This document shows positions 1,710 through 20,447 of a stretch of DNA of 64,000 nucleotides, piece after piece. Where the stretch lies: assembly GCF_005473905.2 (NCBI RefSeq), contig NZ_CP061336.1, forward strand, positions 4,456,501 to 4,520,500, read 5' to 3'. The notes under the pieces were generated by a model. The model did no database searches, was not told where the DNA came from, and was given only the letters and a program-made list of their open reading frames with translations. This DNA comes from Ruminiclostridium herbifermentans. GTDB lineage: Bacteria > Bacillota > Clostridia > Acetivibrionales > DSM-1351. How positions within the stretch are numbered: the first letter of the stretch is position 1; every line of letters starts with the position of its first letter. A program made the translations under genes and the position numbers.

Positions 1710-1761
1710 AGAAATCATCCTTTCTTTGTTAATTTTGATTAACTTAAGGCTAAAATAAAAA

Positions 1762-2624: not shown

Positions 2625-2644
2625 CTTTTAGTTATAGTATAAGA

Positions 2645-3361: not shown

Positions 3362-3371
3362 AAAAGTATCC

Positions 3372-4361: not shown

Positions 4362-4388
4362 TTGCAAAAATCTCCCATAATGTATATT
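4362..4388 (+). promoter_or_regulatory. Candidate promoter of an intergenic RNA
   Basis: TTGCAA, 15 bp, TATATT. The surrounding bases resemble the better promoter at 9350-9377 (shared TTGCAAAA, CCCATAATG). No gene follows on the plus strand, but a strong terminator does at 4538. Confidence 0.4.
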
Positions 4389-4394
4389 AGTTAC

Positions 4395-4607: not shown

Positions 4608-4781
4608 CTGAAGTAAATACCCCCATGCATATATATCTTAAATCCCAACTCATAGTATAATTTCTGAGATTACAGCAAATTAATGTATATTCTATTTTAA
4701 ACAGTCTTAATTAATTTATCCAATCTATGTTCTCAAAATTTCACATATTCTAATATATATTATCCTGATATTGTGATTAGT

Positions 4782-5128
4782 AATTACATTCCGCTATAGT
4801 TAGCTTTTAACCAGCAATCAAACATGTGCGACTGTATGATGTACGAATTTACATTCCACTATAGTTAGCTTTTAACTTTACCTTTTTTAGTATCTGCACT
4901 TCCACAATTAATATTTACATTCCACTATAGTTAATACTATTTCACTTCGTTCTTTACGTTCAGCTTATTTACATTCCACTATAGTTAGCTTTTAACTCCT
5001 GCATTTTATGATTTAGTATTTTCATTAAAGCCATTTACATTCCACTATAGTTAGCTTTTAACTCCTGCATTTTATGATTTAGTATTTTCATTAAAGCCAT
5101 TTACATTCCACTATAGTTAGCTTTTAAC
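4782..5128 (-). CRISPR. Orphan CRISPR array, six repeats, type I-B-like repeat
   Basis: Six copies of a 30-bp repeat start at 4782, 4847, 4913, 4967, 5033 and 5099. Spacers are 35, 36, about 33, 36 and 36 bp. Read on the minus strand the repeat starts GTTAAAAGC, contains TAACTATAGTGG and ends ATGTAAAT, resembling the C. difficile-type I-B repeat. The left-most repeat is degenerate (two changes), as expected at the trailer end, so the leader should be right of 5128. Repeat 3 has lost about nine bases at its minus-strand 5' end. Spacers 4997-5032 and 5063-5098 are identical, a duplicated spacer-repeat unit. No cas genes are in the window. Confidence 0.9.
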
Positions 5129-5259
5129 CCCTTTAGCTCAAATACCACCAATAATAACCATTTAAGAAGTTGATATTGTCGATACAATCAGCATATTATA
5201 CTAAAACAATAAATTATAAGCATAATATTAATAAAATCAGTACTATTGCATGTTGTGAG

Positions 5260-5305
5260 TTCTGTCGATATACTGGCTTTTTTATTTTATTCATGGTCGA
5301 CAGAA
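5260..5305. repeat. Inverted repeat near the TnpB element end, possible recombinase site
   Basis: TTCTGTCGA (5260-5268) and TCGACAGAA (5297-5305) are perfect inverted copies 28 bp apart. A further TGTCGA-containing palindrome (ATTGTCGATACAAT) is at 5175-5188. Clustered inverted half-sites suit a resolvase res-like site, given the serine recombinase gene nearby, but they could equally be a hairpin at the element end. Confidence 0.35.
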
Positions 5306-5319
5306 TAATTAATGTTGGA

Positions 5320-5469
5320 ATGCTTGGTCGGTAACACAATGACCAAGGTTAACCCTTTCCGAGTGGCAATGCAAGTATGTTGGTATATACCTATACTTTT
5401 TTCTACATGCCCTCAGACTTCGGTTGCTAAATCAACCGTAAAATATTCATCTATGTACAAAACTATCTT
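5320..5469 (-). ncRNA. Candidate omega RNA of the TnpB gene
   Basis: The ~150 bp directly after the tnpB stop are GC-richer and more structured than the flanks. On the minus strand they contain CGGTTG/CAACCG (5421-5438) and CTTGGTC/GACCAAG (5323-5347), plus an internal AGGGTTAACCT palindrome. TnpB guide RNAs are known to derive from the 3' end of tnpB and the bases after it, ending at the element's right end, with the guide beyond. The predicted guide would start near 5320 and run leftwards. Exact ends are not determinable here. Confidence 0.5.
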
Positions 5470-6717
5470 TTATTTTAATTGTTTATAAAAATCACTCTCC
5501 TCTTTTGAACTTATGTACTTTGTAGACCTTGCAATATTGAATGATGCATTTCTATCTGCATTCATTTTATTGCCACAAAGCTTACATTCAAATAACTCTT
5601 GGTTAATTCTCTGTCCAACCTCATAATTGCCACATTTACAGCAAGTCTGTGATGTTAAATATGGGTCAACATATTTTACAGCAATCCCTTCCCTATTTGC
5701 TTTATATTCAATCATTTGCTGAAGCTGATAATAACTCCAATATCTTATTGTACTAGACAAAATCTCTTTTTCACTACCAGCAAGTGCTAAAAATTCTACA
5801 TTAATTTGTTCTGCTTTATATTTCTTTGCAAAGTTGATTATTGCTTTACTAACTCCATGATTGTATGTATTAGCAAAATTCTTTTCTTTATTAGTAAATG
5901 CATCCATTAGTTGCATTTTATTAGTTATACCTCTTCCACCCTTATTGATTGCTAACTGCTTTTGGAGCCTTTCCTTTCTTTCCTTAAATTGTTTTCGTAC
6001 CTTTAAAAAATCATTTATATCACCAATGGGTTTTCCTATATATTCTGAATCATTTAAAGTTACATATGCAGGAATTTTCATTCCTAAATCTACCCCAACA
6101 ATTCTTCCTTTAACAACTTCATTAGGAATGTTATCTGTAATATTAACTGATAAGTTTAGAATAAGTCTATTATGTTTATCAAAGCAAATTGAACTCTGAG
6201 ATATTTTATACTCTTTATTTATAACTCTATTTAAAAAACTTCTTAATTCTAAATCATTCTTATTATATTCTTTACCTAACATTACATCAAAAATTATCCC
6301 GTTAACCCATTTAACTTTGACTTTAGTTGAATTAGTATCACAATAGAAAAACTTCAAATCTCTTCCTCGAGTCATTAATGGATAATCCCTTTTATAATTT
6401 CTTATACTTCGTTCTCCCTTAGCAAGACCATTTTTAATGTCTGCTTGAATATGTTTTTTTACAGTTTGATTTACTGAACTTTTAGTATCAATTCCTTTAC
6501 CAAAATTAATATTATCAAAAATAGGATTACTATTGTTAAGTGATTTAATAGCTTCTTTGAAAATCTCTTTATCTCTACTTAAATAAGCTGTTCCCAAATA
6601 GCTCATAGCTTTATTTAATGCTAGGTATTGAGCATACATTGAGTCTCTAATAAACTTGTAGCTTTCATTTCTACTTTCTCCATCAATTAATATCTTGAGT
6701 TTTCTTACAGTTATCAT
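5470..6717 (-). CDS. tnpB: TnpB, RNA-guided RuvC nuclease of IS200/IS605/IS607 type
   Basis: A 415-residue protein, a normal TnpB length. All catalytic features are present: RuvC-I Asp in GVDLGM, RuvC-II Glu in NVEFLALAG, a zinc ribbon of two CxxC pairs near the C-terminus (TCCKCG, CKLCG), and RuvC-III Asp in NADRNAS. TnpB cuts DNA guided by an omega RNA made from the transposon right end and helps the element persist; it is not the transposase. Upstream on the same strand is a resolvase-type serine recombinase, not the usual Y1 or MerR-type IS607 TnpA. Downstream on the same strand are a structured RNA candidate and a CRISPR array. Confidence 0.9.
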   Translation of the reverse strand: MITVRKLKILIDGESRNESYKFIRDSMYAQYLALNKAMSYLGTAYLSRDKEIFKEAIKSLNNSNPIFDNINFGKGIDTKSSVNQTVKKHIQADIKNGLAKGERSIRNYKRDYPLMTRGRDLKFFYCDTNSTKVKVKWVNGIIFDVMLGKEYNKNDLELRSFLNRVINKEYKISQSSICFDKHNRLILNLSVNITDNIPNEVVKGRIVGVDLGMKIPAYVTLNDSEYIGKPIGDINDFLKVRKQFKERKERLQKQLAINKGGRGITNKMQLMDAFTNKEKNFANTYNHGVSKAIINFAKKYKAEQINVEFLALAGSEKEILSSTIRYWSYYQLQQMIEYKANREGIAVKYVDPYLTSQTCCKCGNYEVGQRINQELFECKLCGNKMNADRNASFNIARSTKYISSKEESDFYKQLK

Positions 6718-6804
6718 ATTATCCTCATAATGATTTCATAATTATATGTTACATATTCTTGTAATATATTTAAATTCCTTCTTTTTTTGAATAAATATGA
6801 AATT

Positions 6805-7401
6805 TTAGCGAATTTGTTCTTTTATAATATTTATATATTTATCTAAACTTGGTCTTGATATATCACACATTCTAGCACATTCAGTTTTATTTATCTTACC
6901 ATTCTTTAATAGTTCATAAGCTTTAATTACATTCACTGGAATATCTTTTATAGATGTTCTTGGTCTACCTACAATAGAACCTTTAGCTTTAGCATTAGCC
7001 ATACCACTTTTAACTCTTTGACTTATTATGTTTCTTTCAAGTTCGCTAAATACTCCCATCATTTTAAGCATACCTTCAGTCATTGGGTCTAAGTCCTTGC
7101 TACAATCAACTACAAAATTTCCTAATATCAACTTTATTTTATTAGTCTTAGCAAACTCAATAATTTCACATAGCTGTTTTGTTGAACGTGTAATTCTTGA
7201 TACCTCTGTTGCTACAATAGTATCACCAGATTCAACCTTATCCATTAACCTCTTCAATTGTTCTCTATCTGCCTTAGTTCCAGATTCATATTCAAAATAT
7301 ATATTATTCTCCGTTACTCCCATTGACTTCAATTCTCTTGTTTGCCTTGTTATATCTTGTTTAGTTTCATTTGTTGAGCATCTAGCATATCCATAAATCA
7401 T
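6805..7401 (-). CDS. Small serine recombinase, resolvase/invertase type
   Basis: I chose the ATG at 7401 (MIYGYARCSTNE), preceded by GGAAGGG. The catalytic domain comes first: Ser in YARCST, Arg residues in SRITRS, and ELERNIISQR at the start of the long E helix. The C-terminal ~50 residues after GRPR form a resolvase-type HTH (NKTECARMCDISRPSLDKYI). This is the Tn3-resolvase/Hin order; IS607 TnpA has an N-terminal MerR-like HTH instead. It lies 87 bp upstream of tnpB on the same strand and could move, invert or resolve the unit. Two ATTTGTAA-CAAAATG direct repeats lie just upstream, near 7460 and 7580. Confidence 0.88.
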   Translation of the reverse strand: MIYGYARCSTNETKQDITRQTRELKSMGVTENNIYFEYESGTKADREQLKRLMDKVESGDTIVATEVSRITRSTKQLCEIIEFAKTNKIKLILGNFVVDCSKDLDPMTEGMLKMMGVFSELERNIISQRVKSGMANAKAKGSIVGRPRTSIKDIPVNVIKAYELLKNGKINKTECARMCDISRPSLDKYINIIKEQIR

Positions 7402-7642
7402 AATGTTTCGCCCTTCCATAAATTATTTACTTTATTTGTATTTTACTATAACCATAACCATTTGTAAGCAAAATGGTACAAATAATTTCTTTTACACTTT
7501 ATCTAATAAAAATACTCTCAAACCCATATTTTTCTGCTAATTTTCTTTTAAAATGAGTATATGAGAGCATTAATAATTTGTAAACAAAATGAACTGTTTT
7601 ATTTTACAGTTTTGTTACGCGTATCACAATTTAATAAAAATA

Positions 7643-7669
7643 ATCCCAGTGAAGCACATCAAGTGGGAT
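7643..7669 (-). terminator. Terminator after the surface protein gene
   Basis: ATCCCA/TGGGAT hairpin 34 bp after the stop of the gene at 7703, followed on the minus strand by ATTATTTTTATT. It separates that gene from the recombinase-tnpB unit. Confidence 0.5.
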
Positions 7670-7702
7670 GTACCCTATTGAAGTACTAATGTACAAAACT
7701 TT

Positions 7703-8986
7703 CTATAATTTATCATCTATCATACTCCACCATCTAAATGTTGAAGCTTTTGTCGAATTATATTTTTGATTGATGTCAGTAGTTATAGAAGCATCATCAT
7801 AATTTTTCCAGCTATAATATCGCCTTGTCTGCAAATCTACTTTTAAGTTAGGGTATTTATACCAAGAATCATAATAACCTCCATAAAATTTCTTATTTGG
7901 CATCTCTGAAATAACTGCCTTTGCCATTTTTTCTTGAAAGTTTTGTAATTCTTGCCGTAGTAGATTCTTTTGTTCATCTGTATATTTAATGCTTGTCATT
8001 GCTCCCTCAAAATAGTTATAGTCATATTTGACCATAATCCAATAATCCCATTCTGTATACGAAGCATCATTCTCATAAATATCAAATGTAAATTTAGTTG
8101 TCCCAATATTAGTTTTTAATTCAGAATAATTTGTTTCTAAGAAATTTTTTAAATCTGAAACTGAACTAAGAACATTTGATGTACTTGGTGTTGGTGTTTG
8201 AATAGCTTCCTTTCTTATATCATTGTCATATCCTTTAAACCAAATACCCCCAGTTCCATCGTTGCCTTTACCATAAACTATTAATGGCTTTAAATCCGTA
8301 GTTTTAACTTTAAAGGCTACCCAACCTTCGTTTGATGAACCAGAATATAATTTTGCATCTAATACTGGCTCTGGAAGTACACATGAATAAAAATCATAAT
8401 CTTTTCCCTCTCCTGATACAAGTTTAAATCCATACCTATTTAAATCAAATTGTATATTATCATTGGAGGCTCTATCAACTTTAAAACTAAATTTTGCTAA
8501 AATATATTCATAACTATCTTCAGGCTTATCATTAAATTGATTAGCAGCTAATATTTTATTCCATGCATCATTACCTCGAATTATCCCCTTTAGAGTTATA
8601 ATAGAATCAAAAGTATTTCCATTGGTAAATGTTGTAGTCATATTAATAGCATCATCAATTCCAGCAGGATTTTTCCTTGAGCTTAAAGAAGGTTGAGTAG
8701 GTGCAGGAGTAGGAATAGGTTTTGTTTTGTCAACTAAACTAATATTTCCATTTTTGTCAACTTTATAGTCTTTACCTAATATTTGTGAAACATTTTTTAT
8801 ATTTACATACACATTCTTATTATATGTAATTTTATCTCCACTTACAGCTTTGCCGTCAATTTTAACTGTGACTTCATTAAATACAGCCTTAATTGTTCTG
8901 TTTACCCCTGCTGCAAAAACTGGAATACTTAAAAATAAACTACAAACCAACATCCCTGCTATGAACCCTTGCAATCTTTTTTTCAC
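7703..8986 (-). CDS. Exported protein with copper-amine-oxidase N-like domain
   Basis: I chose the GTG at 8986: GAGGAAAG lies just upstream, and the product then starts VKKRLQGFIAGMLVCSLFLS, a typical signal peptide cleaved near VFAAG. Residues ~30-90 (VTVKIDGKAVSGDKITYN, YVNIKNVSQILGKDY) match the stalk domain called copper amine oxidase N-like, common on clostridial surface proteins and not itself an oxidase. A Pro/Thr linker follows, then ~300 residues I cannot assign, rich in aromatic residues. Likely secreted or wall-associated cargo of element B. Confidence 0.7.
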   Translation of the reverse strand: MKKRLQGFIAGMLVCSLFLSIPVFAAGVNRTIKAVFNEVTVKIDGKAVSGDKITYNKNVYVNIKNVSQILGKDYKVDKNGNISLVDKTKPIPTPAPTQPSLSSRKNPAGIDDAINMTTTFTNGNTFDSIITLKGIIRGNDAWNKILAANQFNDKPEDSYEYILAKFSFKVDRASNDNIQFDLNRYGFKLVSGEGKDYDFYSCVLPEPVLDAKLYSGSSNEGWVAFKVKTTDLKPLIVYGKGNDGTGGIWFKGYDNDIRKEAIQTPTPSTSNVLSSVSDLKNFLETNYSELKTNIGTTKFTFDIYENDASYTEWDYWIMVKYDYNYFEGAMTSIKYTDEQKNLLRQELQNFQEKMAKAVISEMPNKKFYGGYYDSWYKYPNLKVDLQTRRYYSWKNYDDASITTDINQKYNSTKASTFRWWSMIDDKL

Positions 8987-9349
8987 TTTACTTTCCTCCT
9001 CATTATCACTTTTTATCTTAATTGTATCTCCATTACTTGGAATGTTCAATAATTTGTGTAAATTATTAATAAATATGGTTATCGTATGCTATGTCGAGTA
9101 AACGCCTTAATATCAAAGGTTTAAGGTCTATACTTGAATCAAACAATATAAGTACCTTCTATAATGCAGGAATACCAATGCTTTCATTACATTTAAGCCA
9201 GAGAACACCAGTTCGTTCGATAACATTGATATGCGTTTAGATGTGATAATTGATAACCATTATCAATTTATATTTATTTATAAAATAATGTAAAGTGTAA
9301 AAAAATTAGTCGAGGTGTTTTAAAAGGTAATGTAAAATATATAAATATC

Positions 9350-9377
9350 TTGCAAAATTATCCCATAATGATATAAT
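9350..9377 (+). promoter_or_regulatory. Promoter of the structured leader and small ORF
   Basis: TTGCAA, 16 bp, TATAAT. It lies 24 bp before the first leader stem (9401), placing the likely RNA start near 9384. The 9050-9349 stretch upstream holds no gene I can support. Confidence 0.6.
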
Positions 9378-9400
9378 CTTTTTAGGGAAAATTAAATATA

Positions 9401-9603
9401 GTTGCCATGATTTCTAAGTGCGCCAACACTTAGAAACTCATGTAGGTGCTTAACCACCCACACGTATAGACTTTCGTCTACCACAGCAACCAGTTATTAT
9501 TATACTTGCTTTTGTTTATTTTTGCAAATTTCAAGTGCGTGTAGGGTTAACCTATTCGCACTTTTTAATTTTCCCTCCATTTTAAAATTTGGAGGGAATC
9601 ATA
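9401..9603 (+). ncRNA. Structured leader RNA with terminator and hidden RBS, riboswitch-like
   Basis: Three parts in order. First, a junction closed by GTTGC (9401-9405) and GCAAC (9486-9490), holding a perfect 10-bp stem TTTCTAAGTG/CACTTAGAAA and a TAGAC/GTCTA hairpin. Second, a terminator-like hairpin AAGTGCG/CGCACTT (9533-9563) followed by Ts. Third, a perfect 9-bp hairpin (9571-9598) in which TTCCCTCCA pairs with TGGAGGGAA, burying the Shine-Dalgarno of the ORF at 9605. AAGTGCG also occurs in the first stem (9416-9422), allowing an alternative fold. Aptamer plus expression platform is the obvious reading; I cannot match it to a known class. Confidence 0.5.
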
Positions 9604-9604
9604 T

Positions 9605-9904
9605 ATGCCTTTTAGTTCTAATACAAATAATGGCAGTAAATTTAGAAGTTTTATTATATCAAGTATAGATAATAGGATTGATGAAATAAGTAATGAATAC
9701 AGTAACTCGACTGAATATTTAGAATTCTATTATCTATACAGCGATATCTTAAAGCAATTGGAAAAAGCACTACCTCTTGAATCCTCAGATATAATCAATC
9801 AACTTGATAATTTATACGTGAATTACTTAGTTGGTTATCAGAAATATTTTTATAAACAAGGACTTTTAGATTGTAAAATGATGTTTAATTTATTGCATAA
9901 ATAA
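9605..9904 (+). CDS. Small protein behind structured leader, function unknown
   Basis: A 99-residue, acidic, apparently all-helical protein without Cys, signal peptide or membrane segment. GGAGGG ends eight bases before the ATG, but that RBS lies in the leader hairpin. The C-terminal part (YLVGYQKYFYKQGLLDCKMMFNLL) has the look of small helical proteins found in clostridial mobile elements, but I cannot name a family. It converges with the tyrosine recombinase gene, 46 bp away. Confidence 0.6.
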   Translation: MPFSSNTNNGSKFRSFIISSIDNRIDEISNEYSNSTEYLEFYYLYSDILKQLEKALPLESSDIINQLDNLYVNYLVGYQKYFYKQGLLDCKMMFNLLHK

Positions 9905-9950
9905 TCTGGTAACATTATTATTTTTAATTGATTAACCATATTGTTTACTT

Positions 9951-10940
9951 TTATAACTTATTAAAGACATTTTTAAATGGATGCTGATTCTTTAATACAG
10001 TATCTTTCTTAAACTCAAATAATTCAGAATTAATATAAGGCTTTAGTGATGAAATATCCAATCCAGTTATGTCACTAATTATTTCTAACGGAATTTCCTC
10101 TTTAACAAGTCGATTTATAAAAGTGTGTCTTATATTTCTTATTGATACACTTTTATCTTTAATGAGTTCACTTTTATTAATAGCATCTTTAAATATTTTC
10201 CAAAAGGTGTTATTCGATAGTCTTTTTAGCTTCTTATCTTTACTATCTCTTATTGACGGAAATAAAAATAAACAATTTGGATAGTCATATGATTTTTTAT
10301 TAATTAATTCGTTTAAGTATATATTAATCTTATTGGTAACTTCAAAAGGTAATTTTATCTCTCTTCCACTCTCACCAGTAAAATAAATTTTACTTTCTTC
10401 AATAACAATATAATTTTCATCATCTATTGATATTTCATTATTCTTATAAACATTTAAACTGCGTATCTCACCAATGGAACAACCTGTATAAGCTAGAATC
10501 AGAAAAATAATTTCATCTCTCATAGATTTCAATGTTAGCTTTTTACCTTTAATTTGCTCATATAAATTTTCGATTTGCTCATCGTCTAAAAAAGTAAACC
10601 TTTTTTCTATAAATTTGTCATAAGACCAATCATCAAATATGTTATTAGTGTTTACATTTTCTTTCTTATAAAATAAGAAAAACTTCTTTAAAAAAGAAAA
10701 GTACCTAGCTACTGTTGCAGGGGAATACTTTTCATCAGCATTTGTAATAAATAATTCTACATCACTTCTAGTTATATTCTCAAATTTAGGGTTATTGGGG
10801 TATGATGATAAAAAATCCAAGAACTTCTTAATCGTTGATTTTCTGTTATTAATAACATCTTTATTAATACCTTTATCAGCTAAAGACTTTTCGTACCTCT
10901 TCAAGAATATCCCATAACTATCTTTTACAATATCCTTCAC
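9951..10940 (-). CDS. Tyrosine recombinase with divergent active site
   Basis: A 329-residue protein starting at GTG, seven bases after AGGAGG. Residues 1-110 look like a SAM-like core-binding domain (NRKSTIKKFLDFLSSY, SPATVARYFSFLKKFFLFY), the rest like the phage-integrase catalytic domain. The first catalytic Arg (TGCSIGEIRSL) and the nucleophile Tyr (LKPYIN) are present. However, the box-II motif reads RNIRHTF instead of HxxRH, and the usual LGH reads TGLD, so both conserved His positions are replaced. It may be weakly active or have another role. It is unrelated to the tRNA-Ser integrases at 1208 and 11692 and lies just inside the right end of element B. The stretch 10941-11280 holds no other gene. 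Confidence 0.8.
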   Translation of the reverse strand: MKDIVKDSYGIFLKRYEKSLADKGINKDVINNRKSTIKKFLDFLSSYPNNPKFENITRSDVELFITNADEKYSPATVARYFSFLKKFFLFYKKENVNTNNIFDDWSYDKFIEKRFTFLDDEQIENLYEQIKGKKLTLKSMRDEIIFLILAYTGCSIGEIRSLNVYKNNEISIDDENYIVIEESKIYFTGESGREIKLPFEVTNKINIYLNELINKKSYDYPNCLFLFPSIRDSKDKKLKRLSNNTFWKIFKDAINKSELIKDKSVSIRNIRHTFINRLVKEEIPLEIISDITGLDISSLKPYINSELFEFKKDTVLKNQHPFKNVFNKL

Positions 10941-11285
10941 AATAGAACCTCCTATTTTCAGTAAATTTTTAGTTTATACACATTTTTACAATTCTTTTTT
11001 GAAAATCATGCTTCTATTTTACTATTCGGTATTATTGTGTAAAATCCTCCAATATTTTATAAACAATTCTAACATCATAACAAATCATTGAATATATAAT
11101 TACTTTTTTGTTATAATACTAATTTAGTTTTTTACTCAATTTTTTTACTTTAGGTTACTTGTACAATATCAGCAACAAAGATTTCAAGTTATTAGTTTTC
11201 GTTTTGGTGCGTTAATTTGATGGTAATTCTATTTATAATGTTTAATATGTTTGTTAATATAGCATAATGATTATTAATGCTACCC

Positions 11286-11324
11286 TTCTAACAAATCTTC
11301 TAACACTTTTTAAAATTTTCTAAC
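11286..11324. repeat. Three TTCTAAC direct repeats, second set
   Basis: TTCTAAC at 11286, 11298 and 11318, same spacing as at 803-841. It lies in the right-end block shared by elements A and B, about 125 bp before att copy 2. Candidate integrase arm-binding sites. Confidence 0.45.
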
Positions 11325-11363
11325 CATTATATTATAAGTGTTTAAAAGTAAATACATAAATAA

Positions 11364-11381
11364 AAGCCTCATATGAGGCTT
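11364..11381. terminator. Hairpin at right end of element B
   Basis: AAGCCTC/GAGGCTT stem with loop ATAT, the counterpart of 881-898. The loop difference (ATAC versus ATAT) leaves the stem intact, so the structure seems maintained. Confidence 0.4.
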
Positions 11382-11446
11382 AAATAAAGGGTTTGAATAA
11401 TGAAAGATATAGTTAAATAATCTTAAATAATAAATGAAGCGTAACT

Positions 11447-11550
11447 CTGGAAATCGTGTGATGGGTGAAACTATCCGAGGGTTCGAATCCCTCTCTCTCC
11501 GCCAAAACAATGGCTTTCAGGATTTCATTCTGAGAGCCACTTTTGCATTT
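11447..11550 (+). other. attR/attL: Attachment site copy 2: tRNA-Ser(GGA) 3' part plus terminator
   Basis: Same core as at 964-1067, with one G-to-A change near the end (GCATTT for GCGTTT). The ~50 bases before it are also almost identical to those before copy 1, showing that elements A and B share a right end. The ~110 bases after it match those after copy 1, showing that B and C share a left end. It thus marks the border between elements B and C. Confidence 0.85.
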
Positions 11551-11691
11551 CTCAAGGTGCTTGATTTTTTATTTGACACGCATCATCAGTACACACGATT
11601 TTTGAATGAATTTTCACGAATCGTGTGCTATCTTTTAAGGCTTCACACGCATTGAATCCAACATAAATATATAAAGGATGGTGCGTATTAA

Positions 11692-12630
11692 ATGAGAATT
11701 AACATGCAACAGCAACAAGAAAACAATAATCTAGAGGAAGCATTCCAAGAGTTCATTAAGTACTGCAATGTAAAGAACTTAGCAAAGGACACACTAATTT
11801 TTTATGAGAATTGCTTCAAGAGTTTTAGTAAGTTCTATCCTCAGCAAGCGTTTGTAAGGGATATTTCTATCAGCAACATACATGACTATATCCTCTGGCA
11901 AAAGGATAAAAATATTAGTGCAATAGCAGTAAATTCTAATCTTAGAGGGGTTAGAGCGTTCTTGTATTATTGTATGAAACTTGTATACCTATCTAAATTT
12001 TCAATAGAATTGGTCAAAGCAGAAAAGAAGGTTAAGCAGATTTATACTGATTCTGAGTTGAAGTTATCGCTAAAGAAACCCAATGTGAAGTAGTGTTCTT
12101 TTGCAGAGTATAGAGATTGGGTTGTCATAAACTATGCTTTAGCAACAGGCAATAGAGTGTCTACAATTATTAATCTTAAAATTGGAGATATTGACTTTGA
12201 GAACGGCTATATTACTCTACAGAAGACTAAGAATAAAAGGCAACAGATAGTACCTCTTTCTAGTACCTTATCTAACATATTACTTGACTACTTGACTTAT
12301 AGAAAAGGACAGGCTTCTGACTATTTATTTTGTAATGCCTTTGGCAATCAACTTGTCGATAGAAGTCTACAAGGTAGCATTGCAAGGTATAATAAAAGTA
12401 GGGGTGTGATGAAAACCTCAATGCACCTTTTTAGGCACACATACGCTGAGAAGTTCCTCCAAGCAGGTGGTAATGTATTTATGCTACAACGCTTGCTAGG
12501 ACATTCTAGCCTTGAAATTGTAAAGGAATATGTTTCTTTATTCAGTGAAGATTTAAAGCAAAACTATGACCAATTTAACCCTCTTGAACAGATGACTAAA
12601 AGTAATATTCAGATTAAACTAAAAAGCTAA
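11692..12630 (+). pseudogene. Tyrosine integrase with one in-frame amber codon
   Basis: One reading frame of 313 codons broken only by TAG at 12091-12093 (context KKPNVK-stop-CSFAEY). The first half is a SAM-like core-binding domain. The second half has the complete catalytic set: Arg in ATGNRVSTI, HLFRH, LLGH, and Tyr in VKEYVS. It lies about 140 bp after att copy 2, the classic place for the integrase that made these elements. A single nonsense change inactivates it unless TAG is read through; a restart at the ATG at 12157 would lose the first catalytic Arg's upstream helix and the N-domain. The same gene is cut short in element B. Confidence 0.85.
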
Positions 12631-12651
12631 CACACTAGTATTTTAATTTAC

Positions 12652-12685
12652 AGAGGAAGTTGCAGAAAGCTTCTCAGCTTCCTCT
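12652..12685. terminator. Hairpin between integrase and nuclease remnant
   Basis: Perfect 8-bp stem AGAGGAAG/CTTCCTCT in the 78 bp between two convergent genes. No T run on either side, so it is a weak terminator candidate. Confidence 0.35.
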
Positions 12686-12708
12686 TCAGCTGTTCAGACA
12701 AGAGCATA

Positions 12709-13266
12709 TCAGTCCCAAGGGTAGATATATTCAAATTTAACAAACTTATTAACTCTCTTCAAGTCAACAAGCATATACTTTAAGTATGGTCTATCATTCA
12801 GGGCAAATATTATTCTATCCCCAAATTCATCCCTACTGCTTTCAGTTCTTGACCAATCTCCCTTAAAATAATGGTTTAGAACATAGCTCTGCAAGGCTTT
12901 AAAATCAATGAATAGAACCTTCATAGGTAGAAAGCGTATATGGTCTACCATTACAACAGCTAAAGTGTCAGCTGTGCAGTATCTGAACCAACCAAATTTT
13001 CTTTCAGATAAGTTATCCCATATCTCAATGAAAAAGTTTCTTTGAATCTAGAATCCCGTAGTCACTTTTAACCTCAATTTTTTCACCTGTAATAGCTTCT
13101 AAGTCGTACTCTTTGATTTCAGATTCTCTATCTTTGAACTTGTATCCATAATATGCTTCAAGTATTTCTTGTACTTCCTTTTCATATCTCTTGCTGTAGC
13201 ATCTTTCTGCTTTTTCAACATTGCTATATCATCTGTAAAGTCATTATCATTGTATCTTTTATTCAT
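12709..13266 (-). pseudogene. PD-(D/E)XK-like nuclease, two frameshifts
   Basis: The start at 13266 has AAAGGAG. The coding then passes through three frames: MNKRYNDNDFTDD, next a frame containing AERCYSKRYEKEVQEILEAYYGYKF and EKIEVKSDYGI, then a frame from RNFFIEIWDN to the end (YIYPWD, stop at 12709). Joined, they give a ~180-residue protein. The order acidic residue, then IEVKSD with a following strand and FFIEIW, resembles the PD-(D/E)XK nuclease core seen in small phage nucleases. Two frameshifts make it a pseudogene. Carried only by element C because of the deletion in B. Confidence 0.6.
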
Positions 13267-13447
13267 ACCTTTTCTCCTTTAGCATAGAACATAAAGAACC
13301 AAAGCACTTTTTATAGAATGAACACACTTTTTCTACTTAAGAACCAGTTTTTTTGGGTGTATATAAACATAATATAAATATATTATATTATAAACTAATA
13401 ACTATTACTTCGTAATAGTTTGCCATCGCATGAAAAGCATGCAATGG

Positions 13448-13696
13448 CTAGTTTAAAATACATTTAGGGTTAATTTTAGTTTGGATAAGATAAGTATTTA
13501 CTTCTTTACCTTCAAATTTATTATCGTAATAAATAATGTCTCCTCGTCCAATGTCAAGCAATCCATGTTCTTGCAATATGTCTAAATACTTAGCAACTGT
13601 GTTGCGACTAATTCCTGTTTCACAAACAATCTTTTCTGTCGAAAGTGATGTTACTGTATAGTTCCACTTCCCGTCATTTAGACATTTTGCAAGCAT
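13448..13696 (-). CDS. HTH protein, probably 5'-truncated replication or regulatory gene
   Basis: The segment VTSLSTEKIVCETGISRNTVAKYLDILQEHGLLDI is a winged-helix type HTH, as in plasmid and phage replication-initiator or DnaD-like proteins. The open frame continues upstream of the ATG at 13696 without a good start (KVEGIYLYCYMLAKC) to an in-frame stop near 13735, so the natural 5' end seems lost. No RBS precedes 13696. Its absence from element B is explained by the deletion there. Confidence 0.45.
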   Translation of the reverse strand: MLAKCLNDGKWNYTVTSLSTEKIVCETGISRNTVAKYLDILQEHGLLDIGRGDIIYYDNKFEGKEVNTYLIQTKINPKCILN

Positions 13697-13766
13697 GTAG
13701 CAGTAAAGATATATACCCTCAACTTTTATTATTTTAGACTACCAGCATCTTATAGACATAAAAAAT

Positions 13767-13792
13767 AAGGATAAGATTCAATCCTATCCTTG
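13767..13792. terminator. Hairpin between zinc-ribbon and HTH genes
   Basis: AAGGATA/TATCCTT inverted repeat following the stop of the 13827 gene, with AT-rich flanks. Probable terminator of the two-gene HTH/zinc-ribbon unit. Confidence 0.45.
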
Positions 13793-13826
13793 CTTCTATC
13801 ATTCACTAAGTTATTACTGTGTACAG

Positions 13827-14054
13827 TTACTTACTCAAAATCTTGCCTCTTGATATCCTGTCTTTTTCATCAGCATAGGCATCATATGTATTGCCACACT
13901 TAGGACAAGTTAAAGTACCTGTAATGCTATGAATAGCATCAAGGCAAGACATAACAGAAACATACCCATCATCATTAATTGTTCGGTTACATGTTATAAT
14001 ATTAGAAAGAAAAAGTTCATTTCCGCAATCACAAATAGGCTTTCTATATTTCAT
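13827..14054 (-). CDS. Small zinc-ribbon protein of element C
   Basis: A 75-residue protein. Cys8 and Cys10 near the N-terminus, a single Cys in the middle, and a CPKCG knuckle (about residues 50-54) suggest one or two bound zinc ions. The start overlaps the stop of the HTH gene by four bases, so translation is coupled. A truncated copy is in element B (1357-1509). Probably part of the element's regulatory or replication backbone; no family recognised. Confidence 0.65.
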   Translation of the reverse strand: MKYRKPICDCGNELFLSNIITCNRTINDDGYVSVMSCLDAIHSITGTLTCPKCGNTYDAYADEKDRISRGKILSK

Positions 14055-14254
14055 ACTATATCACCTCCCCTCATTGAGTACATTGCTAAAAACTCTTGCA
14101 GTTTCTTGGCGTTTTCACTGCCTAGACCCTTTTTCCCATGTCGGAAGTAGCAAAGCATAGCAGGACTAATATTAATTTTCTTTGCAATATGCTTGGCTAT
14201 CACCCCATTTTCTTTAATAAATTCATTCACTTGCCTTCTCAAAATCTCATTCAT
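14051..14254 (-). CDS. Small HTH regulator of element C
   Basis: A 67-residue protein, identical to the element B protein except for a few C-terminal residues (AMYSMRGGDIV versus TKYSMSGGGIL). Start chosen at 14254 after AAAGGATG. Cro/C1-type HTH at residues 18-45. Preceded by the same attenuator-like hairpin (14307-14329) and conserved non-coding block. Confidence 0.75.
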   Translation of the reverse strand: MNEILRRQVNEFIKENGVIAKHIAKKINISPAMLCYFRHGKKGLGSENAKKLQEFLAMYSMRGGDIV

Positions 14255-14306
14255 AGAAATCATCCTTTCTTTGTTAATTTCGATTAACTTAAGGCTAAAA
14301 TAAAAA

Positions 14307-14329
14307 GCAGTACCCTTTTTGGATACTGC
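14307..14329 (-). terminator. Attenuator-like hairpin, element C copy
   Basis: GCAGTA/TACTGC stem with T-rich 3' side on the minus strand, conserved with 1762-1784 despite loop changes. Lies between the leader and the start at 14254. Confidence 0.5.
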
Positions 14330-14458
14330 CGTTATCTTATAATTAACCTTTTCAAAACAATCATGGTTGAGGGGCAACTTTTGCAACCCCTAGATATGAA
14401 TATAATTTTTTAAGAAGACAAATAGGAGATAATTTTTTTATGGAAACATTTTACTATA

Positions 14459-14673
14459 CTTAATTTCTTCGGCAATTCTTCACTAGAACATGAACACAGT
14501 GTTCACAATCTTCGGCTAATAATATTCTTGGCTATCGGTTTATAAATTTTTTTATTTGCAGTCACACGGGGTTCGGAGAATATTAAAAATTTAAAAATTG
14601 GGGCTAATTTTCTAATTCCTTCGGATTAATATGTTTTGGTCGGTTGGGGGAATATTATATATAGTGTAATATA
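14459..14673. other. Conserved non-coding block of element C
   Basis: Near-identical to 1919-2130, including the palindrome TGAACAC-A-GTGTTCA (14491-14505). 14700-14930 is not shared with element B; 14940-15040 is shared again. The stretch 14387-15579 holds no gene I can support apart from a doubtful 62-codon frame. Confidence 0.5.
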
Positions 14674-15579
14674 TAAGTACTCTTAACATGATTACATCAA
14701 TTCATATGATTAAGTGGTAATAGTAAGATATGATATAACCCTCTTCCAAACTAATACAATACCATAGAGTAAGTATATCACTATTGAAGTAAGTCAAAGT
14801 GTGCTATGCATCTACCAACTTACTGTATAGATTTTAACTTGATACATTAGGCAAGGACAGTATTAACCAGATAATGTAGGACATATTAGTATTCAACGGA
14901 TTGCTGTTCAAACCATATACTCTGTCATACGAAGAAGTTCCCGTTGCTTAGCATCAAAATAAGATAAATGAATGCTGTTCTATAGGTGAATTAGATATTT
15001 TTATAACTGCTAGGTACACAAACGGACGAACGTTCCTCTCATTTGCTTGTAAGCTAAGTAAATCAACTAATACTCAGTAAATAAACACTTGAGTATTCTA
15101 GTTGCTATGCTACAAGAAGAAAAGACCAAACCCCTTATGTAATGATATATAAGCATGTTTATGTTGATTGCAATTGATTCAAGAAAACATATGTCTATAG
15201 ATTTTGAAAGCTGTCGAGTAAAAGGAAAGATGCATTCGGTGTTGCAAGAGATTAAGAGGTTAGGAAAAGGTATAGTTGAAGTTACAAAGGCTTGTACTAG
15301 AAAAGCCTTATATCGCCTCACAGACGTAAAAGAATGGGCATAACAGAAAAGTATATATAGAACCCATCTGAAGTTGTCGAGTTCTTTGAAAGGTTACCAT
15401 TTGCAGGACTCTTTCAACATATTTGAGTAAGACTTAATTATACTATTGACAAACAAGGCTTGTATCTCTTCACTTGTCACGTCAAACTTTATAGTCAGTA
15501 CCTACATCATAATACTATTTCCCTTAATACAAAAGTGGCTACCTATATAAAAGATAGCCACCTCTTTAGCATCCAAACA

Positions 15580-16026
15580 TTAATTGTTATTATCGTATAC
15601 TTTACCATTAAAGTTCAGTCCATTTTCAGTATAGTATGATTGGAAGTAAATTCTATATGTACCACTTGTTAACCCAGTAAATGATTGCGTCACTGGCTCA
15701 TTTGAGTCTCTGTAAACTGTAAAAGAGTTTGACTTTCCAGAAACTGCTGAGTATCCCGACCCACTTTTTTTCATTGGAGTAAGAGTCATTCCTGCTAAGG
15801 CATTGGTTGATGTGTTCCACCTGCTTGAAGCTGTTATTTCAGTTTTAGTATAAAAATTGGTATCACTAATACTAAAATCATCTTCAGATATTTTTCCTAC
15901 ATTTGAAAAACCAGTTCCGCTGTATGTATCAAGTTGACCTGATAAAGTAGCAAACACTTGTAGTGAAAAAATTGAAGCAATAGCTACAGTTGTAACAATA
16001 GCTAATCTAATTTTGCTAAGTTTCAT
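15580..16026 (-). CDS. Small secreted protein, function unknown
   Basis: A 148-residue protein with a signal peptide (MKLSKIRLAIVTTVAIASIFSLQVFA). GAGGT-like AGGAGG precedes the ATG. The mature part is rich in Ser, Thr and Gly and reads as beta-strand repeats; SFTGLTSGTYRIYF resembles a surface or bacteriocin-like beta fold, but I cannot name a family. Cargo of element C, next to a VanZ-like membrane protein. Confidence 0.6.
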   Translation of the reverse strand: MKLSKIRLAIVTTVAIASIFSLQVFATLSGQLDTYSGTGFSNVGKISEDDFSISDTNFYTKTEITASSRWNTSTNALAGMTLTPMKKSGSGYSAVSGKSNSFTVYRDSNEPVTQSFTGLTSGTYRIYFQSYYTENGLNFNGKVYDNNN

Positions 16027-16077
16027 AAGAAACCTCCTAAAAATTTTTTATTTATAATAATTTGCGCATATTATTAT

Positions 16078-16662
16078 TTAAGTTATCTTTTCAGCAAAAC
16101 CTTTTCTAGAACATAATAAATTTTCTAATACTTTTTTACTAACGAATCCAACTACAAAGCCAAATGTATTGCACATTATGTCATTTATATCAAAAAATCC
16201 AACCTTTAAGTAGTGTTGAAGCAATTCAATACTTATAATGTAAGCTAAAAAAATAGCAAAAGTATATATTGGCTTTAATCTAATCCTACTTTTTGCATAG
16301 TATCCAAATGGAATATAGAACAAAATATTTAAAATGATTGTTGTTTTAGAATAGGTGACCATATCCAATACATTAAAGTTCATAGGTTCTGCAAAATTTA
16401 GTTTCATTCTAAATATAGAAAGGCTAACAGCTAATAACACATAACTAAAAAAGAGAATATCTTTTTCTATTGTTTTGATGGAGTTTTTTGCAGTCCAATT
16501 TATTGAAGTATAAATTATAATTGCAATAAATAGTCTGAGACAATGAAAAGGTTGTTCAGCAGTTGCAAAATTAACAAAAACATCATCAACAAAAAAGTAA
16601 CACAAAAATTGCGAAATACCTAGACTCACAATCGCAAATATAATATTTTTAAACGCTCTCAT
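16078..16662 (-). CDS. VanZ-like membrane protein
   Basis: I chose the ATG at 16662 (MRAFKNIIFAIV) because AGGAGG lies seven bases upstream; a longer frame to 16755 has no RBS. Four to five membrane segments. The conserved stretch NILFYIPFGYYAKSR followed by ELLQHYLKVGFFDINDIMCNTFG carries the VanZ signature (polar FD-x-x-D-x-x-x-N between helices). VanZ proteins confer low-level teicoplanin or lipoglycopeptide tolerance in some hosts; here only family membership is supported. 51 bp upstream of the secreted protein gene, possibly cotranscribed. Confidence 0.7.
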   Translation of the reverse strand: MRAFKNIIFAIVSLGISQFLCYFFVDDVFVNFATAEQPFHCLRLFIAIIIYTSINWTAKNSIKTIEKDILFFSYVLLAVSLSIFRMKLNFAEPMNFNVLDMVTYSKTTIILNILFYIPFGYYAKSRIRLKPIYTFAIFLAYIISIELLQHYLKVGFFDINDIMCNTFGFVVGFVSKKVLENLLCSRKGFAEKIT

Positions 16663-16910
16663 ATAAATCCTCCTATGTAACAAAACCACTTTTACAATTA
16701 TATATAAAATTTGAAATATGTCAATAATTTTACAATATTTTGCATTAACATTCATTTAGAAAAGTATATAAATAAGGTAAACTAAGAATACAGTCGAACG
16801 GCTAAATCCTTAGATTCAATTGACGGGATTTACAATTTACATGAAAGTTATTTAGCTATAATACTATTCAAAAAAACATTGATACATTTAAAGAACTAGA
16901 GGTAGGTGTA

Positions 16911-17039
16911 ATGACTTTTGACTTATTTACTGGGACTTATAAAATAATTGTAAAACCTCAAAAGAATAATCCATCATCTAAAAGACATAACCTCTTCGCT
17001 TTAGGGAAGATTGCATCTGAACTTAAAAATCCCAAATAG
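16911..17039 (+). pseudogene. Possible small ORF or gene remnant
   Basis: A 42-codon frame (MTFDLFTGTYKIIVKPQ...) with AGAGGTAGG before the ATG. The same frame is open for about 18 codons upstream with protein-like sequence, so it may be the end of a decayed gene. It lies in the 16663-17186 stretch, which has no other gene. Weakly supported. Confidence 0.25.
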
Positions 17040-17186
17040 AATATTTTGGATTTCTTAAGATTGACTGTTAAAATTAAAGGTGTACAATATTAAGTATAAG
17101 ATTTAATCGTGTGCTGTAATCAAAGATAGATAGTCTGAATATGCTGATTTTAATAGGGTCTGAGAGTGGTAGAGTAGCATTACCGA

Positions 17187-17290
17187 CTGGAAATCGTGTG
17201 ATGGGTGAAACTATCCGAGGGTTCGAATCCCTCTCTCTCCGCCAAAACAATGGCTTTCAGGATTTCATTCTGAGAGCCACTTTTGCGTTT
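17187..17290 (+). other. attR: Attachment site copy 3: tRNA-Ser(GGA) 3' part, island right border
   Basis: Same ~104-bp core as copies 1 and 2. The flanks differ from both: before it lies GGTAGAGTAGCATTACCGA, vaguely D-arm-like but not pairing with the acceptor or anticodon strands; after GCGTTT the sequence diverges (AGCGGTTAAC). It is therefore either the outer right end of the tandem island, or the end of a decayed element C. Four of seven acceptor positions would pair, which argues against a functional tRNA. Confidence 0.75.
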
Positions 17291-17750: not shown

Positions 17751-17799
17751 CTACACTGGCAAAAAGATTCTATTCAGAAATAGGCTAATTTTAAGTAAA

Positions 17800-17826
17800 A
17801 GTAGGACTGCAACGTGCAGCCCTACT
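17800..17826 (-). terminator. Terminator of the DUF2589 operon
   Basis: AGTAGG-CTGCA/TGCAG-CCTACT hairpin overlapping the last stop codon of the operon, followed on the minus strand by TTTTACTT. Confidence 0.75.
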
Positions 17827-18100
17827 CTTCGATCCATGCAGGCCTCCTTGGGAAGCCCACATGATATGTTACTTTTTCCATCGTCAGTTCATGTTCGCCG
17901 ATCATATATCTTCCTATTGTTGTATCTTTTCCTATGATGATTCCTTTGGGATAATCATTTAAGCATCGGTTCAACAGCTTTTCCTGTTCCGCTCTGGATT
18001 GGTCAGATAAGGGATTGTTTGGATTGACACTTCCAATGGGTACAAGCTTTACGTAACATATATCTGTCAACGTAGATTTATTATTTTCCCGCAATGGCAT
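17822..18100 (-). CDS. Small protein of the DUF2589 operon
   Basis: A 92-residue protein; I chose the ATG at 18100 (MPLRENNKSTL) with AAAGGTG upstream. It overlaps the end of the DUF2589 gene by 20 bases in another frame, so translation is probably coupled. The C-terminal stretch IGRYMIGEHELTMEKVTYHVG followed by PRRPAWIEE looks like a conserved beta domain. No signal peptide or membrane segment. Family not recognised; its place at the operon end suggests a partner of the DUF2589 proteins. Confidence 0.65.
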   Translation of the reverse strand: MPLRENNKSTLTDICYVKLVPIGSVNPNNPLSDQSRAEQEKLLNRCLNDYPKGIIIGKDTTIGRYMIGEHELTMEKVTYHVGFPRRPAWIEE

Positions 18101-19235
18101 TACTATATTCACCTTTCTTCTTTAGCAAATCTGACTCTGTCTGACTTACAGTTTTCTGACTATCAACAGCGTTCTTTTGTGCAGCAGCCAATGCATTATA
18201 GAATTCTTCAGTTTTGGCATATTGCGCAATTTTAATTTTATCATCTACAGCCTTTAATCCAAACAATTCTGATACACCAGTCTGTTCTTCGTTGCTGTCT
18301 GCAATCATTTTGATATAATCTTTAACCATATTTTTAAAGTTATTCCATACCTGATTAATCTGATCCTGCGTCTGGCTGTATTCTTCTGCTAGCTTATCAT
18401 TCTCCTCCTTCTTTTTCTGAGCTTTTTCCTTTTCCTCATCGGTCTTGGCGTTCTTGATTTCGTCATCTTCGCCATTAAGTTCGTTAATCTTCTTTAGAAT
18501 ATTGCTCTGGTATACATTCAGTTGAGAATCAGCGATCTTTTTTATATTTATGATGTTACTCATAAGACCACTTTCTGCCGCACTCAATCTGCTCTCTAGC
18601 TGGCTGATTTCATTACGCAAGCTCTTTAAACGCTCTGCCTTGGCTTTTGCCTGCTCTGTCAGATCCTGTCCGTTGCCATCCTTCAGCGTTGAACTTACAA
18701 GTGAAGGTGCTACATTGGCTGCCATCATATCCAGTACTCTTGCAAGACCTTCTGGTGTACCATGGTTGGTAGCACGCACATCCACATGATATTTTGCGGA
18801 ATTATCAGTGCTTCTAGTATTTGCTTGGTGAACACTGACGCTACCTGTCACACTGACCTTGACAGGTCCAATTCTTGCTGAACCGGAGAGGGATAATCCC
18901 AAATCCAAGGATGATTCACTTTTCTCACTCTGCTTTACTTCCATATCAAATAAGATATTGACTTCATCAATCTGAAGATTTGGAATAGGCACAATGGCAA
19001 GCATCGGAACTTCCACCTTCATCTCGTCCAGATTGCTTGTTCCATCCTCATTCATGCTGCGCTTCTCATACTTAAAGGCTACATTTCTTACATTTCCATT
19101 GCTGTCAAACCCTACCTTGTTGATGAACTCCGCTGTAGAACTAGCTAGTCGGATGCTGGCATCTGAAGCTGCTGAAAGTGGGGCTCCGATAAGCTGATCC
19201 ATAGGAAGTCCTGAGAATTGTTGTGCAATTGACAT
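18081..19235 (-). CDS. DUF2589-domain protein, large
   Basis: A 384-residue protein. Residues 1-130 carry the DUF2589 pattern: PMDQLIGAPLSAA at the start, then EVPMLAIVPIPNLQIDEVNI and FDMEVKQ. Next come a Ser/Gly-rich beta segment (SLSGSARIGPVKVSVTGSVSV), a helix around residue 165, and from about 190 to the end long charged coiled-coil segments. No signal peptide or membrane segment, so cytoplasmic. GCGAGGT precedes the ATG. DUF2589 has no function I know of. The length of the coiled coil suggests it forms filaments or multi-subunit assemblies; that is inference. Confidence 0.8.
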   Translation of the reverse strand: MSIAQQFSGLPMDQLIGAPLSAASDASIRLASSTAEFINKVGFDSNGNVRNVAFKYEKRSMNEDGTSNLDEMKVEVPMLAIVPIPNLQIDEVNILFDMEVKQSEKSESSLDLGLSLSGSARIGPVKVSVTGSVSVHQANTRSTDNSAKYHVDVRATNHGTPEGLARVLDMMAANVAPSLVSSTLKDGNGQDLTEQAKAKAERLKSLRNEISQLESRLSAAESGLMSNIINIKKIADSQLNVYQSNILKKINELNGEDDEIKNAKTDEEKEKAQKKKEENDKLAEEYSQTQDQINQVWNNFKNMVKDYIKMIADSNEEQTGVSELFGLKAVDDKIKIAQYAKTEEFYNALAAAQKNAVDSQKTVSQTESDLLKKKGEYSNAIAGK

Positions 19236-19333
19236 AATTTCATACCTCGCTTTCTTTAAATATTTTTATTTTTAATGGGTGACTGGCGCTTTCTCAATCC
19301 TAAAATACACCCAAAAGAATATTTTTGTTTTAT

Positions 19334-19531
19334 TCAGTATTTAGGTTTGCTTATATTTGTCTTTCCTTGCTTCGCAGGCTCATAGTTAGTAATTGATATA
19401 CTTTCCACCCAAAGCATAGTTTTATTGATGCTAATATCTGTATCACAAAGCTGTCGCAAATTAAGCTCCATGATTATGTCGCTTAAATATGCCTCCACTT
19501 CTTCTCTTTCAACGTAATCATTAATTTTCAT
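19334..19531 (-). CDS. Small protein between the two DUF2589 genes
   Basis: A 65-residue protein; I chose the ATG at 19531 (MKINDYVEREEVEAYL) because AGGGAACGG precedes it and it then starts 10 bp after the upstream DUF2589 stop. The N-terminal half is an acidic helix, the C-terminal half a strand-rich segment (MLWVESISITNYEP) with a basic tail. No family recognised. A 98-bp gap separates it from the next gene. Confidence 0.55.
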   Translation of the reverse strand: MKINDYVEREEVEAYLSDIIMELNLRQLCDTDISINKTMLWVESISITNYEPAKQGKTNISKPKY

Positions 19532-19541
19532 GTACCGTTCC

Positions 19542-20447
19542 CTATTCATATTCCTTGTCCAAACCATAGGAGATTTCCATATCAATAATCTTCTTCTGAT
19601 ATTCCATTATTCGGTTGATAATTTTGGATTGTGCCATCATGTAATTGTCACGATCTAAATCATATGTACCTTCTTTAAGAGCATTCTTACTGTTCTTATG
19701 TAGTTTCTCCTGCTCTGTGATTGTATCGGAGATCTTCTGATGGAGCTGCTTTAAGCGGCTGATTTTCGCTTTCAGCTTCATTGTCTCAAGTACAATATTT
19801 TTCTGTTCCTCAGAGCCCAAATCTCCACTTACTGCTACTGGTGTACTGTCTATTTTCTTGGCTACCTGACTAGAGTTTAATGCATCTGTAAGTCTTAAGA
19901 TACCTTCTGTTGCAGGAATAGACGAAATATTCAGCTTATAGGATACTCTCGGTAGGAAGTCGCTTTCTCTCTGTGCTGGAGAGCAGATTCTAGCAACAAT
20001 CTTGCGTTCTTCTTCTTTCGGATTGTCTACTATTTTAATTTCTGTAGAAAAATCAATCTCTGCTTTTTCTACCGCTAAGTTTGTGATAGGTATAATGGAT
20101 AACAGAGGCACCTGTACCTTAAGGTTGTCCACGCTATAGCCATCATCACCTTCTGATCTGACCTGTTCATAAGCAATATTGATATTCTTCAGATGTATAA
20201 CTTCATCTTGTCCATCCTGCTTGCTCACTCCCATATTGCGGATTGCATCCACTATGTCAGCTCGTAGCTTTTGATTGGATATAGCAAGTGCATGGATTGG
20301 TGCATACACCAAATCATCCAATGGAATGAATTTGCTATCCATTATGGCAGCGTTTTTCTTTGTGTTTTCCGTTGTGTTTACCTTTGTGTTTGCCTTTGCC
20401 TTATCCTTATCTGTTCCACCATCATCTGACTGAACATTCTTTGACAT
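19542..20447 (-). CDS. DUF2589-domain protein, first gene of operon
   Basis: A 301-residue protein; ATG at 20447 chosen for AGGAGG seven bases upstream. After a ~45-residue hydrophilic Lys/Thr-rich tail, the DUF2589 region aligns by eye with its partner: PLDDLVYAPIHALA against PMDQLIGAPLSAA, and QVPLLSIIPITNLAVEKAEI against EVPMLAIVPIPNLQIDEVNI. The C-terminal third is coiled coil (KLKAKISRLKQLHQKISDTI). Cytoplasmic by sequence. It differs from its partner in tail and coil length, so the two may form a hetero-assembly. Confidence 0.8.
   Translation of the reverse strand: MSKNVQSDDGGTDKDKAKANTKVNTTENTKKNAAIMDSKFIPLDDLVYAPIHALAISNQKLRADIVDAIRNMGVSKQDGQDEVIHLKNINIAYEQVRSEGDDGYSVDNLKVQVPLLSIIPITNLAVEKAEIDFSTEIKIVDNPKEEERKIVARICSPAQRESDFLPRVSYKLNISSIPATEGILRLTDALNSSQVAKKIDSTPVAVSGDLGSEEQKNIVLETMKLKAKISRLKQLHQKISDTITEQEKLHKNSKNALKEGTYDLDRDNYMMAQSKIINRIMEYQKKIIDMEISYGLDKEYE

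Follow-up and report, generated by a model that had tools for sequence, protein, structure and literature searches.

Clusters of holin, endolysin and spanin genes that lie outside phages are described as type 10 secretion systems, with ChiWXYZ of Serratia and YenLC of Yersinia as examples (available sections of PMC10847048). In phage Mu, the releasin gp25 is a protein with a domain of unknown function (DUF), DUF2730, that is linked to the endolysin gene and has a lysis role without being a holin; it is one membrane-tethered protein for signal-arrest-release (SAR) endolysins (available sections of PMC9239132), and DUF proteins other than holins can thus have a part in lysis. We analysed a stretch of 64,000 nucleotides from Ruminiclostridium herbifermentans (NZ_CP061336.1, positions 4,456,501 to 4,520,500; hereafter the window), in which four genes, here named A, B, C and D, form a putative operon with two members of DUF2589 (PF11655). 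Pfam assigns no function to this family, and the literature searched names it only in passing, in the available text of a paper concerning Archaeoglobus (PMC3949148). We judge the chances to be about even that DUF2589 pairs are parts of phage-type lysis or egress modules, of which the four genes of the window would be an acquired core. In this reading, the module would work like a type 10 secretion system or a phage lysis cassette, yet we do not file it as a type 10 system because it has no known holin and the window lacks a hydrolase.

All four genes lie on the minus strand. Gene A (19542-20447) encodes 301 amino acids (aa) from an ATG at 20447 with AGGAGG upstream, and gene C (18081-19235) encodes 384 aa. 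PF11655 matched residues 42-192 of A (about 19872-20324; 5.9e-17, 62.9 bits) and residues 11-172 of C (1.1e-39, 136.7 bits), both above the curated cut-off of 23 bits, and by these scores A and C are DUF2589 members. The core of C is followed by long predicted helices at about residues 194-381. Gene B (19334-19531, 65 aa) and gene D (17822-18100, 92 aa from its ATG; the mechanical open reading frame, or ORF, begins at GTG 18112) belong to no known family, and neither had a match in Pfam, NCBIfam, PHROGs or PADLOC at E values up to 1. No transmembrane (TM)-like segment was found in A, B, C or D of the window. A terminator-like hairpin follows D on the minus strand (17797-17829; -22.2 kcal/mol, z -5.5 versus 200 shuffles), although a consensus terminator scan did not list it. 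An initial annotation, made from the letters alone, had described two DUF2589 genes and two small genes of these sizes, all of which are present, as well as overlaps and a common terminator. The hairpin and a 20-base overlap of C and D agree with the latter description, but this is the sole overlap in the operon, A and B being spaced by 10 bases and B and C by 98.

The gene set recurs in other genomes, which excludes a chance grouping of ORFs. One scan of a species-genome collection gave 39 loci with relatives of C at 50-69% identity, nearly all of them labelled Lachnospiraceae or its genera. A was present in 38 and D in 36 of the 39 loci, and a B-like ORF was found in 32 of the 38 loci having A and C; window B matched a hidden Markov model (HMM) built from these B-like ORFs with 49 bits. 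The most conserved member of the set was D, with a mean column identity of 71% over 27 sequences, and window D is 63-78% identical to 26 relatives. The small genes therefore accompany DUF2589 genes elsewhere; the initial annotation had named the opposite outcome as grounds for rejecting its four-gene system.

The usual order in Lachnospiraceae is endolysin, A, B, C, D, STAS, GNAT-like gene and sensor phosphatase. The endolysin upstream of A is of phage type, with Amidase_2 and/or Phage_lysozyme domains encoded as one or two genes. It was found on the same strand within 3 kb upstream of A in 35 of the 36 loci with upstream sequence, and in 33 of these it lay no more than 400 bases from A. Matches among the 39 loci numbered 34 for STAS, 28 for the GNAT-like gene and 34 for a dCache-HAMP-SpoIIE-HATPase protein, positioned after D except in locus L034. 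Pairwise comparison of A, C, D, endolysin, STAS and GNAT gave correlated evolutionary distances in all 15 pairs (r 0.41-0.79; in each pair, no permutation out of 500 was as high), in keeping with co-inheritance as one unit. The remark of the initial annotation that enzymes and regulators are missing holds in the window but not in the Lachnospiraceae relatives, where the set stands between an endolysin and a phosphatase-type regulatory module. An integrase was present in 14 of the 39 loci. Jacalin-like lectin genes lie in or beside the endolysin-DUF2589 operon in three loci (L005 5508-6071, L027 5553-6170 and L034 9236-9823; assigned by Pfam for L005 only and by similarity for the others), and an MVB12-like gene was seen in one. 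Jacalin, MVB12-like, Exo_endo_phos and GIY-YIG-like genes were each found in one to three loci and are only candidates for exported cargo.

The Lachnospiraceae operon is like a type 10 secretion system in having a phage-type endolysin in a small dedicated bacterial gene set with a regulator. It is unlike one in that neither a holin of known class nor a holin-like gene is conserved in it, with the two-paralogue DUF2589 set plus B and D standing there instead, and in its SpoIIE/STAS-type regulator; the window copy departs further, without even an endolysin. Of the parts of a type 10 system, the peptidoglycan hydrolase was not found at the window operon and is present in the relative loci at the frequency given above, and the holin has no counterpart with a TM-like segment among A-D of the window or among A-D, endolysin and STAS of the relatives, although a holin of an undescribed kind may still be present. 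In the relatives, no such segment was found in A (0/38), the B-like protein (0/32), C (0/39), D (0/36), the endolysin parts (0/35 and 0/34) or STAS (0/33), and it was found in 29 of 31 phosphatases and one of 28 GNAT-like proteins. The Lachnospiraceae endolysins also had no hydrophobic, signal-like N-terminus, and in both respects the module differs from Mu gp25. Partner-switching modules contain a SpoIIE-type phosphatase, a HATPase and a STAS protein; these domains also occur in the Lachnospiraceae operon, where they are combined with an endolysin. No paper in the literature searched joined three of partner switching, endolysin, STAS domain and holin.

Using C of contig L065 as the query, we found 30 IMG/VR contigs that carry C, L065 included, of which 28 contained two DUF2589 genes in the order A then C; many of these contigs are closely related, and the counts are not independent. 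The viral DUF2589 proteins are 124-152 and 196-216 aa long, and D was absent from the viral loci searched. A PHROG-supported endolysin or spanin, identified directly or by similarity to a scanned gene, lay at most four genes from C in 10 of the 30 contigs (L081-L086, L089, L090, L096 and L097). The clearest case was that of L096 and L097, in which A and C are followed by two Rz-like spanin genes and an endolysin; an endolysin precedes A and C in L090 (phrog_465) and in L081-L083. Spanins and an endolysin beside the pair in some contigs are a further likeness to type 10 secretion. Among the other 20 contigs, one had an XhlA-like gene only, three a weak holin match only and five an unverified muralytic-like gene, either of the L088 type (Phage_lysozyme2 at 0.025, below cut-off) or of the L065/L080 type (no Pfam match). 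In 13 of 29 viral contigs, C is followed by a gene for a small protein having a TM-like segment; the figure for all scored genes except A and C, those 13 included, is 49 of 345. Some contigs have small holin-like proteins in the vicinity of the pair (phrog_1193 'hemolysin', 2.6e-5; phrog_1296, 4.2e-4; Holin_BhlA, 0.034).

Virion genes adjoin the pair in some viral contigs. Terminase_6C and P22_portal genes are its neighbours in L065, where, as in L088, the pair stands before terminase and portal, and in L092 it follows terminase-like and portal-like genes recognised by eye. These positions would fit a minor virion or morphogenesis component of phages, of which the bacterial operons would be remnants. 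We consider this very unlikely, since spanins and endolysins are the neighbours in L096, L097 and L090 and the conserved neighbours in the Lachnospiraceae operon included no recognised virion gene. An anti-phage defence or abortive-infection system would suit the patchy distribution of the family (6 of 100 relatives and 10 of 391 Clostridia genomes positive, the window's own genome included in both counts), the adjoining mobile elements and the transfer between families. However, the viral contigs themselves carry the pair, the Lachnospiraceae operon has a dCache sensor phosphatase and no known phage sensor, and no PADLOC match was found to the DUF2589 core, B or D in the 2023 version of the defence-model library, whose reach does not extend to new systems. 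The PADLOC matches of C were limited to its coiled-coil part, from residue 190 onward (LmuB-like, best E 2.7e-5). A defence role is therefore highly improbable in our view.

DUF2589 genes were also found in 14 other loci (L053, L056-L064 and L076-L079). The D profile matched proteins of two Vibrio plasmids (L058 and L060), a deltaproteobacterial plasmid (L059), a Clostridia genome (L076) and an IMG/VR contig (L064). A DUF2589 gene is followed by C and then D in L058, L060 and L076; the first gene of L059 is A-like by place and alignment only, and L064 has C then D. Further wall enzymes near DUF2589 genes were a GH108 enzyme in L064, a PF11860 muramidase in L059 and in the faecal scaffold L063, and a GH25 enzyme in L079, which has a single DUF2589 gene. 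A peptidoglycan-binding protein is annotated near the genes in L058 (annotation only), an Exo_endo_phos gene is close by in L076, and L078 begins at a contig end. Four of these loci have other features near their DUF2589 genes. In L079, an eCIS_core (PF13699) protein (7063-8943) lies near the DUF2589 gene and the GH25 enzyme. In L056, short repeats on both strands (819-3605), seen in ORF translations and with the look by eye of a CRISPR-type array, stand beside DUF2589 genes with extra C-terminal domains. The two Vibrio plasmids have the DUF2589 pair and D in regions that are also annotated with TcdA/TcdB-domain proteins (annotation only).

That several wall-enzyme families are associated with the pair, in bacteria and in viral contigs, points towards a shared step and not towards the chemistry of one enzyme. 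A rival role would be that of a cytosolic endolysin regulator or chaperone, in an inhibitor, immunity or storage complex, with membrane passage left to another protein or to cell death. The proximity of the pair to endolysins of several families, the holin-like small proteins near it in some viral contigs and the lack of TM-like segments in A, B, C and D are all compatible with such a regulator. On the other hand, a binder of one enzyme is expected to track one family, whereas five Pfam families were found (Amidase_2, Phage_lysozyme, GH108, PF11860 and GH25), and the Lachnospiraceae operon contains no other conserved gene for membrane passage. We thus regard the regulator as unlikely. In the lysis or egress reading, DUF2589 pairs would probably act at the membrane, a step that is inferred.

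The predicted structure of C offers a candidate for a membrane step. In a model of moderate confidence, the core comprises a long helix plus a four- or five-stranded sheet; an S/T/G-rich insertion of 45 residues (residues 101-145; 18801-18935, minus strand) lies between two of the core strands and is a candidate membrane-active hairpin. The residues S, T, G, N, D and Q made up 42-59% of the insertion in the 11 sequences scored, of 18. The S/T-rich insertion resembles the membrane hairpins of beta-pore formers, although periodicity, the fold search and the low-confidence model did not establish this resemblance. The model places helices after the core at residues 194-252, 266-314 and 346-381. 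This helical extension is absent from a short pair in L053 (170 and 184 aa) and from the viral proteins, which argues that the long helices are not the core function. The initial annotation had taken paired structural proteins with small partners to suit a cytoplasmic assembly such as a filament, compartment or defence complex, and the long helical part of C, the paired paralogues and the small partners would fit a filament, compartment or scaffold. Proteins without the extension and neighbours that are cell-wall enzymes and regulators make this distinctly unlikely, and the claim of a filament, compartment or defence complex found no support in the position of the viral pair near endolysins or spanins or in PADLOC hits confined to the coiled coil.

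A lysis or egress module could work as follows. A cytosolic endolysin without a signal peptide needs passage through, or opening of, the cytoplasmic membrane. A and C would assemble at this membrane, into which the S/T-rich hairpin of C may insert, and would give the endolysin access to the wall, doing the job of a holin or a releasin; C would be the best candidate for the membrane step, and B and D may be adaptors. In Lachnospiraceae, the dCache-HAMP-SpoIIE-HATPase and STAS proteins would, judging from their domain content, set the trigger via partner switching in response to an external signal. The triggered cell would then release its contents, among them perhaps the lectins or other gene products specific to a few of the loci. 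With low confidence, we further propose that DUF2589 pairs are a new class of lysis proteins, namely a pair of soluble paralogues, of which one has an S/T-rich beta hairpin, opening the membrane for cytosolic endolysins; some phages would use them for lysis, and Lachnospiraceae would use them under a sensor-phosphatase switch for programmed lysis or secretion.

Several observations weigh against the lysis or egress reading. Eleven of the 30 viral contigs showed no lysis-like gene at a distance of up to four genes from C, as judged by similarity to 11 labelled proteins only and with selected neighbours scanned; one of these contigs is without upstream sequence, and in two a holin lies 12-14 genes away. 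The holin role need not fall to the pair, because the small holin-like proteins described above stand near it in some viral contigs. Four of the 14 other loci had an endolysin nearby, with L061 and L062 not looked at, and no obvious endolysin was found in L053, L056, L057, L060, L076 or L077 when their ORFs were read by eye or by annotation. To our knowledge, Archaeoglobus fulgidus has no peptidoglycan. DUF2589-related genes have nevertheless been reported in that organism (available text of PMC3949148). In the Lachnospiraceae operon, 8 of 203 same-strand ORFs between endolysin and phosphatase had a TM-like segment; these lie in just five loci, which argues that no membrane protein is a conserved part of this interval. 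As for the hairpin, the model had a pLDDT below 50 in the insertion and did not resolve it, and the fold search with the model gave no pore-former match and no solid structural relative. A W-G near the middle of the insertion was present in 11 of 18 aligned relatives, and window C is without this W-G tip. Finally, searches at the window operon yielded neither an endolysin, STAS or GNAT-like gene nor a remnant of one (the endolysin query being the Lachnospiraceae enzyme), the nearest amidase homologues found in the genome lie about 364 kb or more from the operon, and no GNAT-like homologue was found in the genome. Because the endolysin and the regulators are absent, the function of the window copy itself is uncertain.

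Acquisition of the gene set by transfer into this genome is well supported by sequence comparison. In a tree of 39 C proteins, window C fell in a clade of five (support 100/97) with L004, L005 and L011 (Lachnospiraceae) and L035 (Eubacterium), nested in the Lachnospiraceae group; the tree tool flags long branches elsewhere in the tree. Three other genomes of the window's genus carry a different, short DUF2589 pair. This nesting, the other pair of the genus mates and the patchy distribution together argue for transfer. The GC content of the operon is 0.392 versus 0.326 for the window, and the excess is clearest at third codon positions (GC3 of 0.384 in A and 0.387 in C versus 0.262 ± 0.050 for the other ORFs of the window), which bears out the earlier remark that the operon is richer in GC than its neighbours. 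In the same-genus genome L053, the short pair (5754-8107) has a GyrI-like/DUF5085 gene on one side and a gene containing a GIY-YIG-like stretch (below cut-off) on the other, a different version within the genus.

The mobile island that the initial annotation had placed beside the operon was also found to be real. An intact tRNA-Ser(GGA) gene (G000 4443616-4443707) is located about 30 kb left of the operon, and 3' fragments of this gene were found at positions 996, 11479 and 17219 of the window and, outside it, at G000 4453273. An 84-base direct repeat copy with the tRNA-Ser(GGA) 3' end (17187-17270, plus strand) marks the right end of this array. Such an arrangement is typical of tandem integration of elements at a tRNA gene. 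The operon begins 0.55-0.58 kb past the last, att-like repeat copy, and no further copies were found to its right, which places it beside the recognised array rather than demonstrably inside it. The direct repeats delimit a tandem array at 964-17270, in which 111-aa ORFs at 1506-1841 and 14051-14386, near-identical by eye, lie in two elements. At 5470-7419, a serine-recombinase-like ORF (204 aa) adjoins a 415-aa ORF resembling a TnpB-type protein; we take this ORF pair to resemble an IS607-type element.

The window copy would have been received without its endolysin and trigger, and it may work with an endolysin in trans, do part of the job, serve another use or be a passenger. That this copy alone is a functionless passenger brought by the mobile elements of the adjoining array is a prospect we doubt but give some weight. 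The nearby att-like repeat and the absence at the operon of the endolysin, STAS and GNAT-like partners, with no remnants, fit a passenger. Four intact ORFs in conserved order, the strong ribosome-binding site of A, the terminator-like hairpin and the identity of D to its 26 relatives do not.

The lysis or egress reading gives a concrete, testable role to a widespread family lacking an assigned function, and one lysis-type module would link viral contigs with a common gut-associated bacterial family. If the membrane step is real, endolysin release by DUF2589 pairs would be unlike that by the known helical holins, and sensor-controlled lysis in Lachnospiraceae would bear on the release of proteins without a signal peptide.

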